From NCBI RefSeq assembly GCF_001685485.1, contig NZ_BDEL01000001.1:558001-622000 (forward strand): a DNA stretch of 64,000 bases, read 5' to 3'. The translations under genes and the position numbers were made by a program. The notes under the pieces are model-generated. The model was not told the origin of the DNA. It did not search any database and worked only from the letters and a program-made list of their open reading frames with translations. The DNA comes from Formosa haliotis (GTDB taxonomy: Bacteria > Bacteroidota > Bacteroidia > Flavobacteriales > Flavobacteriaceae). This document shows, piece after piece, positions 25,963 to 54,842 of the stretch. Within the stretch, counting starts at the first letter, position 1. Every line of letters begins with the position of its first letter.

Positions 25963-27525
25963 TTAGGCCTTTGGACTCTGTTTTTGTTCTTCTGCCGGCG
26001 GAGCAGCTAATTCGGGTTGCTCGAACAAATCTAAGTAAGCATAACCTATGTGCGAAATCACATCAGAAGCAATTAAGCTTTGGTAACTTTTAGATTCAAT
26101 GGCAATATCGGCGGCTTTACCATGTAAATAGGTTCCAAAACAAGCAGCTTCAAACGGTGTATAACCTTGAGAAACCAACCCTGTAATAATTCCCGTTAAT
26201 ACATCTCCTGTTCCAGCAGTAGCTAAACCTGGATTTCCGGTGGAATTTATATAGTATTTGTTTTGGTATACCGTTATAGAATTGGCCCCTTTAATTATTA
26301 CAATAAGCTTATATTTCTTAGTAAATGCTTTTACTTTATTCAGCTTATTAAAATCGTCTTTCCATGGTCCGATTAAGCGTTCTAACTCTTTCGGGTGCGG
26401 AGTTAAAATGGTGTCTGGTTTTAATAATTTCAATAAACTTTTCTTTTTAGACAGTAAATTCAATCCGTCGGCATCAATAATTAAAGGGAGTGTATTTTTT
26501 TCTAAAAAGGCTTCAAAAGCATTTAAGGTTTTTGTGTCGGTACCCAAACCTACACCTAGCCCAATCACGGTTGGTTTGACGTCGAAAGTCATGTTAGAAA
26601 TAAGCTGTTCTTCTGCATCTGTAATTACCATAGCTTCAGGTACAGCGGTCTGAAGCGGGATATATCCACATTTCGGAACATAAGCTGTTACTAAACCTGC
26701 TCCTGCAGCCAAAACAGCCCGACAAGCCAATTGAACCGCTCCAATTTTACCATAACTTCCACCAATAATAAGTGTATGCCCAAAATCGCCTTTATGCGAA
26801 AACTTATCTCGTTGTTTGTACATAGGCAAAACATCCAACTTCCCTAAAATATGTGCTTCGGTTTCTGTGGTTTGTAAATATTCAGGGTCTATACCAATAT
26901 TTAATGCTTCCCATTGATCGATATATTTCGATGTTTCGGGTAAGAAAAACACCAATTTAGGAGTTTGAAAACTTAAAATTAAATTAGATTTAACCACTTC
27001 ATCTTCATGACTCGGAATGCGATCTGTATATAATCCTGAAGGAATATCTACGGAAATCGTTAACGCTTCGGATGCCTTTAAATGTTTAAATAAAGCCACT
27101 ACCCAATCGTTAATTGGTCGATTTAGTCCGACACCAAAAATCGCATCGATTACAATATTTTGTTTCGAAATTTCAGGAAAATCATCTTCCTTATGTATAG
27201 AAACCGGCCAATCTTTGGTTGTTTCTTTTAAACGCTCATAATTGGTTAAAAAATCTTGCGACCGTTTATCGCTAAAATCAACGATATAGGTTTTTACATT
27301 ATAACCATGAGTAATTAAATGCCTTGCCAACACCAAACCATCGCCCCCATTATTACCTATACCACAAAAAATTTGGATAAGTACCGGTGCGCCTTGTAAT
27401 CGGGTGTCTAACCAATTAAACAAACTAATTCCGGCGCGTTCCATTAAATCAGCCGAGCTAATATTCTGTTTTTTTATAGTTAATCTATCGCCTTCATAGA
27501 TTTGTTCTTTAGAAAATATTTTCAT
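25963..27525 (-). CDS. nnr: Bifunctional NAD(P)H-hydrate epimerase / ADP-dependent dehydratase
   Basis: This fusion enzyme repairs damaged NADHX/NADPHX. Residues 1-215 form the YjeF_N epimerase domain (LMERAGISLFNW, GIGNNGGDGLVLARHL, DAIFGVGLNRPI). Residues about 225-505 form the ribokinase-like dehydratase domain (KGDFGHTLIIGGSYGKIGA, LTPHPKELERLIG, and GTGDVLTGIITGLV with the catalytic Asp). At 520 aa it has the normal length for the fused form, with a short Pro/Glu/Gln-rich tail. It is transcribed leftward, divergent from the threonine operon. Confidence 0.95.
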   Translation of the reverse strand: MKIFSKEQIYEGDRLTIKKQNISSADLMERAGISLFNWLDTRLQGAPVLIQIFCGIGNNGGDGLVLARHLITHGYNVKTYIVDFSDKRSQDFLTNYERLKETTKDWPVSIHKEDDFPEISKQNIVIDAIFGVGLNRPINDWVVALFKHLKASEALTISVDIPSGLYTDRIPSHEDEVVKSNLILSFQTPKLVFFLPETSKYIDQWEALNIGIDPEYLQTTETEAHILGKLDVLPMYKQRDKFSHKGDFGHTLIIGGSYGKIGAVQLACRAVLAAGAGLVTAYVPKCGYIPLQTAVPEAMVITDAEEQLISNMTFDVKPTVIGLGVGLGTDTKTLNAFEAFLEKNTLPLIIDADGLNLLSKKKSLLKLLKPDTILTPHPKELERLIGPWKDDFNKLNKVKAFTKKYKLIVIIKGANSITVYQNKYYINSTGNPGLATAGTGDVLTGIITGLVSQGYTPFEAACFGTYLHGKAADIAIESKSYQSLIASDVISHIGYAYLDLFEQPELAAPPAEEQKQSPKA

Positions 27526-27662
27526 TCGTATTTATTTTGAAAAAATTCATTAGAGATTATTCATTTTTATAGATATAAATTGTATTTAAATAAACAATTT
27601 ATGCTTAACAGTAAATAATCTGTAAAAAATTATGATCCGTTTTTTTATAACAGTAAAAGTAA

Positions 27663-27670
27663 TACATTTG
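27663..27670 (+). promoter_or_regulatory. Promoter -7 element before the threonine leader peptide
   Basis: TACATTTG matches TAnnTTTG exactly. Transcription from about 27676 would include the 36-codon leader ORF starting at 27690, which supports the leader being expressed. Confidence 0.55.
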
Positions 27671-27689
27671 AGAAGTTTAGTAGTAAAAA

Positions 27690-27800
27690 ATGCAAAATAC
27701 AGAATTTACATCTCAATTTATTTCAATTCCAACACACGTTGGTTATACTGCTATTATTCGTACTTCTATATTAAACATTATTACCCCTTGGGGTAATTAA
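27690..27800 (+). CDS. Threonine/isoleucine-rich leader peptide of the thr operon
   Basis: This 36-codon ORF starts at ATG 27690, 20 nt after a TAnnTTTG element, and stops at TAA 27798-27800, 86 nt before thrA. Six codons are Thr and seven are Ile, over a third of the peptide, and it ends IITPWGN. The last six codons (ATT ACC CCT TGG GGT AAT) also form a perfect hairpin. The layout is that of an amino-acid attenuator: scarce charged tRNA-Thr or tRNA-Ile would stall ribosomes and change folding of the downstream RNA. The Thr/Ile choice fits the operon, since threonine is also the isoleucine precursor. Too short to be found by length-based gene calling. Translation is not proven. Confidence 0.7.
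   Translation: MQNTEFTSQFISIPTHVGYTAIIRTSILNIITPWGN
27780..27797 (+). promoter_or_regulatory. Hairpin at the end of the thr leader ORF
   Basis: ATTACCCC and GGGGTAAT are perfect 8-bp arms around TT, coinciding with the last six leader codons. A second small hairpin, CCAAC-acac-GTTGG, lies at 27729-27742 inside the same ORF. The main hairpin is followed by an AT-rich stretch rather than a clean T run, so termination versus a translation-coupled switch cannot be decided. Confidence 0.6.
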
Positions 27801-27886
27801 TTATATATCTTCCGTCCACTCAATTTGTAATATTATGTTACAATATCAAAATATTAAGTTATTAAATTTATACAATCTAATCTAAA

Positions 27887-30331
27887 ATGAAAGTATTAAA
27901 ATTCGGAGGAACTTCTGTAGGATCCTCAAAAAACATAAACAACGTCGTTTCTATTCTAACAAAATATGCACAAACATCTCAGGTAATTTGTGTGGTTTCA
28001 GCCGTTGGTGGTATTACCGATAAATTATTAGAAGCAGGCCAATTAGCACAATCTAAAAACAGTGCATATCAAGAGGCTTTTTCAAATATTAAATCTATTC
28101 ACCTAAACATTATTAAGGAATTAATTCCCGTAAATAATGAAACCGTTTTAAGCACTGTTGAAAGTAAATTAGACGATTTAAAAAACCTTTTAGATGGTAT
28201 TTTTTTAATTAACGAATTATCGCCAAAAACATCTGATAAATTAGTGAGTTTCGGAGAATTATTATCTTCTTATATTATTGCAGAAACGCTTAAAGATCGT
28301 GGTGCAAATGCCGAACGTAAAAACAGTCAGGAATTAATTACTACCAATTCTAACTTTACTAAAGCAGAAGTAAATTATACCATTACTAACGACAATATTA
28401 AAAGCTATTTTAAAGATAGTAATTACGATATTACCATTTTACCAGGCTTTGTATCTAAGTCTATTACTGGAGAAATTACTACTTTAGGCCGTGGTGGATC
28501 TGATTTTACAGCAGCCATTGTTGCAGCAGCGTTACAAGTAGAGCAGTTAGAAATCTGGACCGATGTAAGTGGTATGTATACCGCCAATCCTAGAATGGTT
28601 AAACAAGCCTTGCCTATCGATAAATTATCGTATCAAGAAGCGATGGAACTGTCACACTTCGGAGCAAAAGTACTTTATCCACCAACAGTGCAACCGGTAT
28701 TAAGTTTACAAATTCCTATTCATATAAAAAACACGTTAGAACCAGATGCGGTTGGTACCATTATTTCTAAAGACAGTAATAATGTAACCAATACAGCAAA
28801 AGGAATTACAAACATTAGTAATGTAGCCTTGTTAACACTTCAAGGAAACGGTATGGTTGGAATTCCAGGATTTTCTAGACGTTTATTCCAAACTTTAGCG
28901 CAGGAGAAAATCAATGTCATTTTAATTACTCAGGCATCTTCAGAGCATTCTATCTGTTTCGGGATAGATGAAAAAGATGCTGCATCTGCAAAAGTTGCTA
29001 TCGATACGGAGTTTGAAAATGAAATTTCGCTTAAAAAAATCGATCCTATTTTAGTGGAGTCTGATTTATCTATCATTGCTTTAATTGGTGATAGCATGAA
29101 GAGTCACCAAGGTGTTAGCGGGAAAATGTTTAGTGCTTTAGGTAAAAACAACATTAATATTAGAGCGATTGCTCAAGGTGCTTCAGAACGTAATATTTCG
29201 GCAATTATCGCTCAAAACGATGTTAAAAAAGCCTTGAATATATTACATGAAGTCTTTTTTGAAGGTAATATAAAACAACTTAACGTATTTATTACAGGTG
29301 TTGGAAATGTTGGTGAGCGTTTGGTTGAACAAATAAAACAACAACGTAAATATTTAAAAGAAAACCTTAAAATTAATTTACGTGTTGCTGGACTTTCAAA
29401 TTCAAGAAAAATGATTTTTGACGGTGAAGGTTTATCCCTAAAAAACTGGAAAGAACAATTAGAAACCGGTGAAGATGCAAGTTTAGAAGGCTTTTACGAA
29501 GGGGTTAAAAACTTAAACCTACGTAATAGTGTGTTTGTAGATGTTACTGCCAATAAGGATGTAGCCGATTTATATGCCAAATATTTAAAACAAAGTATAG
29601 CGGTGGTAGCATGTAATAAAATAGCGTGTTCTAGCAAGCTTGAAAAATATAAAGAATTAAAACAATTATCGTACAAATACAACGCACCTTATTTATTTGA
29701 AACCAATGTAGGTGCAGGTTTACCTGTAATTGACACGTTGAACAATTTAATCGCTTCTGGTGATAAAGTAACCTCTATTCAAGCTGTATTATCGGGAAGT
29801 TTAAACTTTGTGTTTAATAATTTTAACGATACGACTAAATTCTACGATGTTGTAAAACAAGCGGCAAAAGAAGGATACACAGAACCAGATCCAAGAATCG
29901 ATTTAAGTGGTGTAGATGTAGCCCGTAAAATATTGATTTTAGCCCGTGAAAGCGGTACTGAAATGAATTTAGAAGATATTGAAAATACACCGTTCCTGTC
30001 TGAAGCAGGAGTAAAAAGCGATACGGTAGACGATTTCTACCAAACTTTAATTGACGATGAAGCGCATTACCAAAGTTTATATGCTTCGGCAAAGGCCAAT
30101 AACAGTCAGTTAAAATATGTTGCAGAATTTAACAACGGACAAGCTAAAGTTGGCTTGAAAGAAATTCCAGAAGGACATCCATTCTATAACTTAGAAGGAA
30201 AAGATAATATTGTAATGTTTTACACACAGCGTTACCCAGAACAACCTATGATTATTAAAGGAGCTGGTGCCGGTGCAGAAGTTACAGCTTCAGGATTATT
30301 TGCAGATATAATAAGAATAGGAAACAACTAA
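27887..30331 (+). CDS. thrA: Bifunctional aspartokinase / homoserine dehydrogenase
   Basis: ThrA phosphorylates aspartate and later reduces aspartate semialdehyde to homoserine. The 814-aa protein has the kinase domain (KFGGTSVGSS at the N-terminus, TLGRGGSDFTAAIVAAAL about 200), paired ACT regulatory domains (about 310-460, LLTLQGNGMVGIPGF and IALIGDSMKSHQGVSG) and the C-terminal homoserine dehydrogenase (NVFITGVGNVGERLVEQI dinucleotide motif, FETNVGAGLPVIDTLNNL). Length is normal for the fused enzyme. It is first in the thrA-thrB-thrC order, behind the Thr/Ile-rich leader, so attenuation is the likely control together with threonine feedback through the ACT domains. Confidence 0.97.
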   Translation: MKVLKFGGTSVGSSKNINNVVSILTKYAQTSQVICVVSAVGGITDKLLEAGQLAQSKNSAYQEAFSNIKSIHLNIIKELIPVNNETVLSTVESKLDDLKNLLDGIFLINELSPKTSDKLVSFGELLSSYIIAETLKDRGANAERKNSQELITTNSNFTKAEVNYTITNDNIKSYFKDSNYDITILPGFVSKSITGEITTLGRGGSDFTAAIVAAALQVEQLEIWTDVSGMYTANPRMVKQALPIDKLSYQEAMELSHFGAKVLYPPTVQPVLSLQIPIHIKNTLEPDAVGTIISKDSNNVTNTAKGITNISNVALLTLQGNGMVGIPGFSRRLFQTLAQEKINVILITQASSEHSICFGIDEKDAASAKVAIDTEFENEISLKKIDPILVESDLSIIALIGDSMKSHQGVSGKMFSALGKNNINIRAIAQGASERNISAIIAQNDVKKALNILHEVFFEGNIKQLNVFITGVGNVGERLVEQIKQQRKYLKENLKINLRVAGLSNSRKMIFDGEGLSLKNWKEQLETGEDASLEGFYEGVKNLNLRNSVFVDVTANKDVADLYAKYLKQSIAVVACNKIACSSKLEKYKELKQLSYKYNAPYLFETNVGAGLPVIDTLNNLIASGDKVTSIQAVLSGSLNFVFNNFNDTTKFYDVVKQAAKEGYTEPDPRIDLSGVDVARKILILARESGTEMNLEDIENTPFLSEAGVKSDTVDDFYQTLIDDEAHYQSLYASAKANNSQLKYVAEFNNGQAKVGLKEIPEGHPFYNLEGKDNIVMFYTQRYPEQPMIIKGAGAGAEVTASGLFADIIRIGNN

Positions 30332-30388: not shown

Positions 30389-31321
30389 ATGAACGAATTA
30401 AGAATATTTTCGCCTGCTACTGTTGCTAACGTTTCCTGCGGATTCGATGTTTTAGGTTTTTGCTTAGACAGTATTGGCGATGAAATGGTGATACGTAAAA
30501 CCGATAAAAAAGGCATTCATATTACTAAAATTGAAGGCTATAATTTACCCTTCGAGGCCGAAAAAAATGTAGCTGGGGTGTCGGCTCTTGCGTTATTAGA
30601 AGATTACAAATCCGATTTTGGTTTCGAAATAGAAATCTATAAAAAAATTAAACCAGGCAGTGGTGTTGGTAGTAGTTCTGCAAGTGCCGCTGGTAGTGTA
30701 TTTGGCATGAACGAACTCTTAGGTCGTCCATACAACAACACACAGCTTTCTTATTTTGCCATGAAAGGTGAAGCTTTAGCGAGCCAAAGTGAACATGCCG
30801 ATAATATTGCTCCTGCCCTTTTTGGTGGCTTTACACTGGTTAAAAGTGTGAGTCCTTTAGAGATTTTAGAGATTCCAACACCAGACAATTTATATGCTAC
30901 TATTATACATCCGCAGATAGAAATTAAGACTTCTGAAGCGCGTGCTATATTACCAAAGCAAGTCGATTTAACAGATGCCATTTCGCAATGGGCCAATGTA
31001 GGAAGTTTAATTCATGCTTTACACACAAGTAATTACGGATTAATTGAACGTTCACTACACGATGCCATTGTAGAACCGCATAGAAGCAAATTAATACCCT
31101 TATATCAGGACGTTAAATTAGCAGCCAAATCGGCTGGTGCTTTAGGAAGTGGTATTTCGGGTTCTGGACCATCAATTTTCAACCTATCGGAAGGTTTGGA
31201 AACAGCTAAAAAAGTAGAAGAAGCCATTCGTAAAGTTTATGCTAAAAGTGATATTGCATTCGATACTTATGTATCTAAAATCAATGCTGAAGGCATGAAA
31301 ATACTAAGTCAACACAACTAA
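30389..31321 (+). CDS. thrB: Homoserine kinase
   Basis: ThrB phosphorylates homoserine to O-phosphohomoserine. This 310-aa GHMP kinase has the N-terminal FSPATVANVSCGFDVLG motif, the ATP loop PGSGVGSSSASAAG (about residues 89-102) and the C-terminal GISGSGPSIF motif. It lies 57 nt after thrA. A small intercistronic inverted repeat (GACAATTT at 30344 and AAGTTGTC at 30370) sits in that gap, possibly stabilising or attenuating the message. The thrC gene follows after 174 nt that contain a repeat copy. Confidence 0.96.
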   Translation: MNELRIFSPATVANVSCGFDVLGFCLDSIGDEMVIRKTDKKGIHITKIEGYNLPFEAEKNVAGVSALALLEDYKSDFGFEIEIYKKIKPGSGVGSSSASAAGSVFGMNELLGRPYNNTQLSYFAMKGEALASQSEHADNIAPALFGGFTLVKSVSPLEILEIPTPDNLYATIIHPQIEIKTSEARAILPKQVDLTDAISQWANVGSLIHALHTSNYGLIERSLHDAIVEPHRSKLIPLYQDVKLAAKSAGALGSGISGSGPSIFNLSEGLETAKKVEEAIRKVYAKSDIAFDTYVSKINAEGMKILSQHN

Positions 31322-31495: not shown

Positions 31496-32791
31496 ATGAA
31501 TTATTTTAGTTTAAACAAAAAAGCTCCAAATACAACATTTAAAGATGCTGTAATTAGAGGCCTAGCTCCAGACCGTGGGTTATATTTCCCAGAAAGTATC
31601 ACACCTTTATCTGAAGACTTTTTTAAGAATATCGATGCCTTATCGCATTCAGAAATTGCATTCGAAGCCATAAAACAATTTGTCTCTCCAGAGATTCCTG
31701 AAGCCGATTTAAAAACGATAGTAGAAGAGACATTAGCTTTCGATTTTCCGATAGTAGAACTAGATAAAAATATTTCTTTTTTAGAATTATTTCACGGACC
31801 AACCATGGCTTTTAAAGATGTTGGCGCACGATTTATGGCACGTTGTTTAGGACATTTTTCTAAAGAAGATGCCAAACAAGATGTTACCGTTTTAGTAGCC
31901 ACTTCTGGCGATACTGGAGGTGCTGTTGCTAACGGATTTTTAGGTGTAGAAGGCGTAAACGTAGTTATTCTTTACCCTAGCGGAAAAGTGAGTGATATTC
32001 AAGAAAAGCAATTAACCACCTTAAAAAAGAATATTACAGCTTTAGAAGTTAATGGTACGTTTGACGATTGCCAGGATATGGTTAAGCAAGCGTTTTTAGA
32101 CGACGACTTAATTTCTAAAATGAAATTAACATCGGCAAACTCTATAAACGTGGCCCGTTGGTTACCGCAACTGTTTTATTTTATGTTTGCCTATAAAGAA
32201 CTTCATAAAAAGTACGACGAGCTTGTATTTTCTGTACCTAGCGGAAACTTTGGAAATGTTTGTGCTGGTATGATGGCACAACGCTTAGGTTTACCAGTCT
32301 CTCATTTTGTAGCGTCTAACAACGAAAATAATGTGGTAACACGATTTTTACAAACCGAAGAATACAGCCCTAAACCTTCTGTACAAACCATCTCTAATGC
32401 CATGGATGTTGGTAACCCGAGTAACTTTGTAAGAATTCAAGAAATCTATAACAACGATTTTAAAACGTTGAAAGAAAACCTGTCATCTTACAGCTTTACA
32501 GATGAAGAAACTAAAGAAGCTATGACAGAAATTTATAACGAGTATAGTTATGTTGCAGATCCGCATGGTGCTGTGGGATATTTAGGAGCAAAAAAATATA
32601 TAGAAACGCATCCTAACGCACATTGTGTGTGTTTAGAAACTGCACACCCAACTAAATTTTTAGATGTTGTGGGCGAAGTTATTAAAGAAAACATCGCTTT
32701 ACCTCCACAAATTTTATCGGTAATGGATAAAAAGAAAAAGTCTATTAAAATTGATACCTATTCAGATTTGAAAAACTATTTATTAAAATAG
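31496..32791 (+). CDS. thrC: Threonine synthase
   Basis: ThrC converts O-phosphohomoserine to threonine with pyridoxal phosphate. The 431-aa protein has the N-terminal domain typical of the long form (APDRGLYFPESI), the PLP-lysine motif HGPTMAFKDVGARFM (Lys about residue 107), the phosphate-binding SGDTGGAV loop and SVPSGNFGN. It ends the pathway encoded by this operon. A nested inverted-repeat element with a T8 tail lies 41 nt after the stop and probably terminates the operon. Confidence 0.96.
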   Translation: MNYFSLNKKAPNTTFKDAVIRGLAPDRGLYFPESITPLSEDFFKNIDALSHSEIAFEAIKQFVSPEIPEADLKTIVEETLAFDFPIVELDKNISFLELFHGPTMAFKDVGARFMARCLGHFSKEDAKQDVTVLVATSGDTGGAVANGFLGVEGVNVVILYPSGKVSDIQEKQLTTLKKNITALEVNGTFDDCQDMVKQAFLDDDLISKMKLTSANSINVARWLPQLFYFMFAYKELHKKYDELVFSVPSGNFGNVCAGMMAQRLGLPVSHFVASNNENNVVTRFLQTEEYSPKPSVQTISNAMDVGNPSNFVRIQEIYNNDFKTLKENLSSYSFTDEETKEAMTEIYNEYSYVADPHGAVGYLGAKKYIETHPNAHCVCLETAHPTKFLDVVGEVIKENIALPPQILSVMDKKKKSIKIDTYSDLKNYLLK

Positions 32792-54663: not shown

Positions 54664-54842
54664 TATAAAAAAAGCCTGCACCGGTTTTATTGTTTTGTAT
54701 AAACTCCTTAAAAACAAGTTTAGGGCTAACAAGTTGATCAAGGATCTGCTCTAAGACAGCTTGCTTTTACAACTTAAACTCACCCTTTTTAAAGAATTAA
54801 CGTTGAGTTTATCAAAAATAAATAACCAATACAGGCAGTAAC
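54664..54842 (-). ncRNA. ssrS: 6S RNA (probable)
   Basis: 6S RNA binds the housekeeping RNA polymerase holoenzyme by imitating an open promoter. In the 222-nt gap between zapA and rny, the minus-strand RNA can close a long stem: GCCTGTATTGGTTATT (54836-54821) pairs with AATAAAACCGGTGCAGGC (54691-54674). A second helix is ATAAACTC/GAGTTTAT (about 54813 and 54700), with a wide internal loop between the arms, the typical 6S shape. A T7 tail follows. About 175-180 nt fits the usual size. Ends are approximate. The zapA neighbourhood is also where proteobacterial ssrS sits. Confidence 0.75.

Follow-up and report, generated by a model that had tools for sequence, protein, structure and literature searches.

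The thrL, hisL and trpL leaders of Escherichia coli are ribosome-mediated attenuators, and tnaC is an example of Rho-dependent leader control, in which the position of the ribosome on a small ORF decides and an intrinsic terminator is not needed. Work of Lopatovskaya et al. from 2010 may, reportedly, list thr leaders of Bacteroidetes. Experiments on the E. coli leader pause hairpins used a 10-nt spacer (PMC9291695), the tnaC leader is described as sensing free Trp (PMC8429421), and in the E. coli toiL-topAI system toiL is reported to sense antibiotics and to work via the ribosome-binding site (PMC12121999). Leader-peptide attenuation was proposed in 2021 for amino-acid operons of Flavobacterium psychrophilum, a proposal that shares the phylum and the general idea with the present case and whose main text is without threonine or thrA (PMC9723704), and short ORFs were noted in the long 5' regions of Bacteroides thetaiotaomicron (PMC7366714). 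None of the matches listed describes, for Bacteroidota, a thr leader that lacks a terminator, which is weak evidence of absence; leader-peptide attenuation in flavobacteria has already been suggested in print, and the terminator-less thr variant would, judged from its sequence, be the new part.

Here, we analyzed the thr locus within a 64,000-nucleotide stretch of Formosa haliotis DNA (the window). As in E. coli thrL, hisL and trpL, a short leader ORF rich in end-product codons lies between the promoter and the operon, and, as in hisL and trpL, a hairpin at the leader end is separated by about 10 nt from the presumed pause site. In contrast to these E. coli leaders, no U-tract terminator and no conserved antiterminator was found in the thr leader. 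The his, trp and, in part, ilv leaders present in the same genomes of the same family follow the same leader-peptide logic, but carry GC-rich hairpins and T tracts which the thr leader lacks. In tnaC and toiL the position of the ribosome on the small ORF is decisive, whereas a role of Rho in the thr leader is one that we infer. Comparison of the upstream regions establishes a leader ORF with a Thr/Ile run, a hairpin at the leader stop (H1), a motif at a near-fixed distance from it (M), two additional hairpins (H0 and H2) and a missing U-tract terminator.

The thr leader and its occurrence in close relatives

The features of the locus are collected in Table 1. The leader peptide translates as MQNTEFTSQFISIPTHVGYTAIIRTSILNIITPWGN, and the gap between the end of its ORF and the thrA start codon amounts to 86 nt; for the terminal dyad, RNAfold predicts 7 bp closing a CUUG tetraloop. 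A sequence-only reading of this DNA had described the 36-codon ORF with its Thr and Ile codons at this distance from thrA, a TAnnTTTG element ahead of it and two hairpins, all of which are borne out. Its remark that the terminal hairpin is not followed by a clean T run is right at the home locus and holds throughout the close relatives.

Table 1. Features of the thr locus (positions within the window)
Feature	Position	Strand	Remark
Promoter box TAnnTTTG (TACATTTG)	27663-27670	+	19 nt from box to leader ATG
Leader ORF, 36 codons	27690-27800	+	6 Thr, 7 Ile; intact in 73/81 loci
Leader stop codon TAA	27798-27800	+	
H0, CCAAC-acac-GTTGG hairpin within leader ORF	27729-27742	+	synonymous resampling test
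H1, ATTACCCC-TT-GGGGTAAT hairpin at leader stop	27780-27797	+	5' arm starts with last Thr codon
M, [CT]ATAT..YC element (TATATATCTTCC)	27802-27813	+	first TATAT 7 nt past H1
H2, AT-rich covarying hairpin (TTGTAATATTATGTTACAA)	27825-27843	+	covariation and fold
thrA, aspartate kinase/homoserine dehydrogenase I	27887-30331	+	NF006959 above cut-off
thrB, homoserine kinase	30389-31321	+	NF002288 and TIGR00191 above cut-off
thrC, threonine synthase	31496-32791	+	TIGR00260 above cut-off

Divergently from the thr promoter lies a gene for a NAD(P)H-hydrate dehydratase/epimerase-like protein (25963-27525, minus strand; both yjeF domain models above cut-off). Elsewhere in the home genome, a second thrA-like stretch (G000:C1:3291591-3293306) covers residues 239-811 at 35% identity and contains one in-frame TAA.

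The close set consisted of the window and the best 80 of 436 thrA loci (81 loci), a selection that biases it towards near relatives; the closest genomes among these 80 are Formosa, with a thrA identity of 91-92%. A Thr/Ile-rich leader with a terminal hairpin was present in 73 of the 81 loci (the start codon is ATG in 70 of these and GTG in L004 and L012, and in L011 the ORF lies further upstream, at -378 to -273 relative to thrA), and a TAAtAnTTTTG-like box precedes the leader throughout the close relatives. A Thr-rich leader without hairpin was found in none of the 81 loci. Comparison of the thrA upstream regions, which the sequence-only reading had proposed, revealed a conserved short Thr/Ile ORF before thrABC with constraint at synonymous sites, and the claimed layout of ribosome-mediated attenuation is supported. 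When the leader peptide was used as query, 29 of 199 genomes of the family matched at E <= 1, convincing matches being restricted to the home genome (2.8e-20) and one congener (2.7e-8), with the next best at 0.028.

In the other eight loci of the close set (L062, L063, L068, L069, L072, L078, L080 and L081), no leader was found by the filters used, and four of these (L063, L068, L069 and L078) have a promoter box 40-46 nt ahead of thrA. The whole leader is absent in L068, L069, L078 and others, as if leader and hairpins had been lost together as one unit. In L007, L011 and L016, extra sequence is present between the conserved trailer and thrA, and a conserved ATTAAAA-ATG context precedes the extra stretch.

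Hairpins and the motif around the leader stop

Within the 5' arm of H1, Thr is encoded by ACC in 70/70 leaders, compared to 42 of 436 Thr codons elsewhere in the leaders, the former count being partly built in because the leader filter demanded an ACC core near the leader end. As a safeguard, the 11 loci missed by the ACC filter were inspected without it, and no Thr-rich leader lacking H1 was seen. The Gly codon of the 3' arm is GGT in 67/67 cases (31/91 elsewhere in the leaders). The encoded residues at or after H1 are variable (L/P/R, W/R/L and then C/Y/N/F), and the conserved TPWGN or PWGN ending anticipated by the sequence-only reading did not hold up, as LWGC, LWGY, LRGF, LLGY, ITP-stop and TTTG-stop endings were also found. 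A conserved PWGN peptide or nascent-chain arrest was discarded, since the residues vary while the paired bases stay; judged from these alignments, the PWGN ending is translated H1, that is, a by-product of the RNA hairpin, rather than a conserved peptide.

In an alignment of 45 sequences, the four core pairs of H1 are invariant and, because they never vary, give no evidence either way. The next two pairs show two-sided changes in 5 and 4 cells, and the outer pairs are unpaired in 10, 11 and, outermost, 31 of 44 sequences. Considered jointly, H1 and H2 comprise 28 cells with a two-sided change, compared to at most 12 when the partners were slid. The strongest argument for an RNA hairpin is provided by the distant family f16, which swaps the arms of H1 (ACCCC..GGGGT to ACGGG..CCCGT) with the pairing intact. 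Counted from the last Thr codon (position 0), with which H1 opens, the Thr codons cluster at positions -6 to 0. The ACCC/GGGT arms may resemble an anticodon stem of tRNA-Thr.

H0-type stems of at least 6 bp occur in 34 of 70 leaders, whereas 200 synonymous resamplings gave 10.3 on average and 19 at most; their register differs from clade to clade, and in some members the 3' arm of H0 is, by eye, complementary to the 5' arm of H1, a candidate antiterminator pairing. H2 is paired in 95.2% of cells, with two-sided changes at 5 of its 8 pairs (45 sequences), and other lineages often carry a different hairpin in its place, as judged by eye and fold. An internal promoter at H2 was rejected, the TAnnTTTG-like sequences coming after the stem and, by eye, not being conserved.

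The definition of M followed inspection of the close and distant loci, f16 being the one set added afterwards. The strict motif is present in 50 of 72 close trailers (shuffles: mean 6.6, maximum 12) and in 18 of 34 distant ones (mean 2.1, maximum 5). A spacing of 8-11 nt between H1 and [CT]ATAT was observed in 25/34 distant loci (shuffles: mean 1.1, maximum 5) and in 11/14 f16 loci (mean 0.6, maximum 4). The close set showed no excess of this spacing over shuffles (6/72; mean 3.8, maximum 10), because the first TATAT sits there at 6-9 nt past H1 (52/72), a range picked post hoc and without shuffles. A [CT]ATAT-type motif after H1 is absent in 15 of the 72 close trailers.

Searched with a covariance model of H1, M and H2, the home genome showed a single match at E <= 1, which lies at thrA, and 59 relatives together showed 13 at E <= 0.01, 13/13 of them before thrA with a Thr leader. 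Up to E 10, none of the Rfam 15 covariance models matched within 27600-27950, and at gathering score none matched seven related loci. The sole Rfam match of the window at gathering score is a 6S-Flavo RNA (RF01685) at 54701-54808 on the minus strand, with 113.4 bits.

Terminators, trailer composition and leader types across the class

The thr, his and trp leaders were scored by one rule, which counts as a terminator a hairpin with a T tract at or below -5 kcal/mol. According to this rule, a terminator is found in 2 of 72 thr trailers, the same as after shuffling (3/72), whereas in the home family 28/29 his leaders (shuffled 0) and 26/29 trp leaders (shuffled 2) carry one; the scarcity of U-tract terminators in the thr trailers supports the earlier suspicion of a departure from the enteric mechanism. 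A leader peptide was present in 29/30 his loci (HHHH..) and 29/30 trp loci (WWW) of this family, and an I/V-rich leader with hairpin and T tract was noted by eye in at least 12 of 30 ilv loci; no such leader was seen by eye at the ilv locus of the home genome (L176). Three tested his/ilv/trp loci (range L122-L211) and L175 had no Rfam match at gathering score. Scored in the same way but without shuffle control, terminators occur in 7/34 loci of the distant H1-type set (3/34 at -8 kcal/mol), in 0/14 H1-type loci of f16 and in 8/8 terminator-type thr leaders (f41, g320 and L316). No alternative (antiterminator) pairing with covariation was found in 45 sequences; about 96% of cells would permit a TTGGGG:CTTCAG pairing, which shows no covariation. 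Surveys based on U tracts miss H1-type leaders, because a terminator search is their starting point, and one survey states its own blindness to Rho-dependent cases (PMC2965389).

The close trailers have a C/G ratio of 2.59, compared to 1.21 in 283 control regions, mainly because G is scarce (5.6% versus 11.1%) and not because they are rich in C (14.5% versus 13.5%); 42 of the 283 control regions attain the mean C-minus-G excess of the trailers. The corresponding ratio in f16 is 1.99 (15 trailers) versus 1.12 (27 controls), and for comparison those of the his and trp trailers are 0.96 and 1.38. By composition, the G-poor trailer is compatible with Rho loading, to which such a bias is unspecific.

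H1-type leaders were encountered in families f1, f2, f13, f14, f16, f33, f36, f57 and f59, and reach eight further families of the class besides the home family. Among 24 other class-level thrA loci, taken at E <= 1e-200 from 119 genomes, 10 are H1-type, 3 (family f41) have a classical terminator leader and 11 are without recognised Thr leader. At the order level, 17/21 loci are H1-type, two of the 21 being already included in the class-level count, and 20 further stretches comprise 9 H1-type, 4 terminator-type (genus g320) and 7 loci without recognised Thr leader. L242 and L257 have the H1 hairpin but no ORF that passes the leader filter; L260-L266, L268 and eight places of family f72 were left out of the counts. 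In f16, the H1 pattern is present in 14/28 usable new loci, of which 11 have the swapped ACGGG..CCCGT hairpin at the stop codon, 2 a version of it with a single mismatch (CCCAT) and 1 ACCCC..GGGGT, one of the 14 (L294) being without an ORF through the leader filter; the remainder consists of L316, which is terminator-type, and 13 loci of neither type. Two more swapped hairpins are found in L223 and L224.

The leaders of f41, g320 and L316 are Thr-rich and located before thrA like the H1-type, but end in a classical T-tract terminator. Since terminator-type thr leaders stand at the same gene in sister lineages, both types probably share the same job. Within family f2, the genus of L284-L287 is terminator-type and that of L269-L276 is H1-type, a mechanism switch at one gene.

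Proposed mechanism and alternative explanations

We interpret the leader as a cis-acting, ribosome-mediated attenuator of thrABC with a factor-dependent off step, a reading to which we assign a probability of roughly 0.5. It would sense the charging of tRNA-Thr and probably also of tRNA-Ile. Under Thr or Ile scarcity, the ribosome would wait on codons in or just before H1, and since the last Thr codon opens H1 and the Thr codons lie at -6 to 0, the waiting ribosome would keep the hairpin open. When both amino acids are plentiful, the ribosome would finish and depart, allowing H1 to close. Akin to the 1:2 pause hairpin of hisL and trpL, H1 would hold RNA polymerase near M and thereby keep it synchronised with the ribosome; once the ribosome has left and H1 has formed, transcription would stop ahead of thrA in a factor-dependent manner, most likely by Rho acting on the G-poor trailer, rather than at an ordinary intrinsic terminator. 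This factor-dependent (Rho) ending is the least certain step of the proposed mechanism. A starved ribosome would often stall short of H1, so that the hairpin, if it alone turned the operon off, could have the opposite effect to the one required; H1 may be a mere synchronising hairpin, the decision falling later.

Tentatively, at about one chance in three, the same design may extend to an attenuator found across the class Bacteroidia, in which a ribosome-gated hairpin at the stop codon and a polymerase set at M would be combined with Rho or another factor instead of a terminator, and which would have been repeatedly exchanged with the classical type. If the off step is factor-dependent, many Bacteroidia thr operons would link the supply of amino acids, the position of the ribosome and Rho or pausing without an intrinsic terminator, and sister lineages with the classical type at the same gene would allow a direct comparison of the two designs.

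An alternative reading of the hairpin, in which H1 itself is an intrinsic terminator without a clean U tract and is blocked by a ribosome waiting on the Thr codons, appears unlikely to us. The hairpin is stable, and in most Flavobacteriales members only A and U come after it, with T runs directly behind it in a few loci (L276, L257 and L045), but clean T tracts mark the his and trp terminators of the same family as well as all eight terminator-type thr leaders, -8 kcal/mol is attained by none of the 14 f16 loci and only three of the 34 distant ones, and a coupled ribosome would cover H1 at the moment when the polymerase has just passed it. A slimmer prospect is an ordinary attenuator with a terminator so AT-rich that the scoring used overlooks it: L251, L253 and L256 do have ATATAAT-type stems ahead of T runs, i.e. 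an AT hairpin and T run, but such an arrangement is not general, as -5 kcal/mol is reached in only 2 of 72 close trailers and in none of the 14 f16 loci, and no conserved antiterminator accompanies it.

We regard as similarly improbable, if not slightly more so, translational control, in which the leader RNA would mask or expose the thrA start according to ribosome position. It would make a terminator unnecessary, and for L269 and L270 (g199-type) folding predicts a pairing between the thrA start and the segment after H1; however, with a single segment length of 30 nt, duplexes between trailer and thrA start were no better than shuffles (mean z 0.01 in 72 close and 0.58 in 14 distant loci, 0.83 in 10 g127-like, -0.51 in 10 g199-like and 0.38 in 14 f16 loci). 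Sequestration of the thrA start was discarded on account of these z values of about 0 overall, as was pairing of the YC stretch after H1 with the thrA GGNGG, GGT and GGC variants being uncompensated and without covariation. Finally, it is highly improbable that H1 is a DNA operator for a repressor which the ORF merely overlaps. As a dispersed operator H1 was rejected, the other nine of its 10 near-matches in the home genome being, by eye, without a Thr-rich leader. H1 is a near-perfect dyad, which speaks for an operator, but the Thr/Ile frame is open in 73/73 loci with H1, the hairpin is linked to both the last Thr codon and the stop, and its sequence changes between lineages while the pairing is kept.
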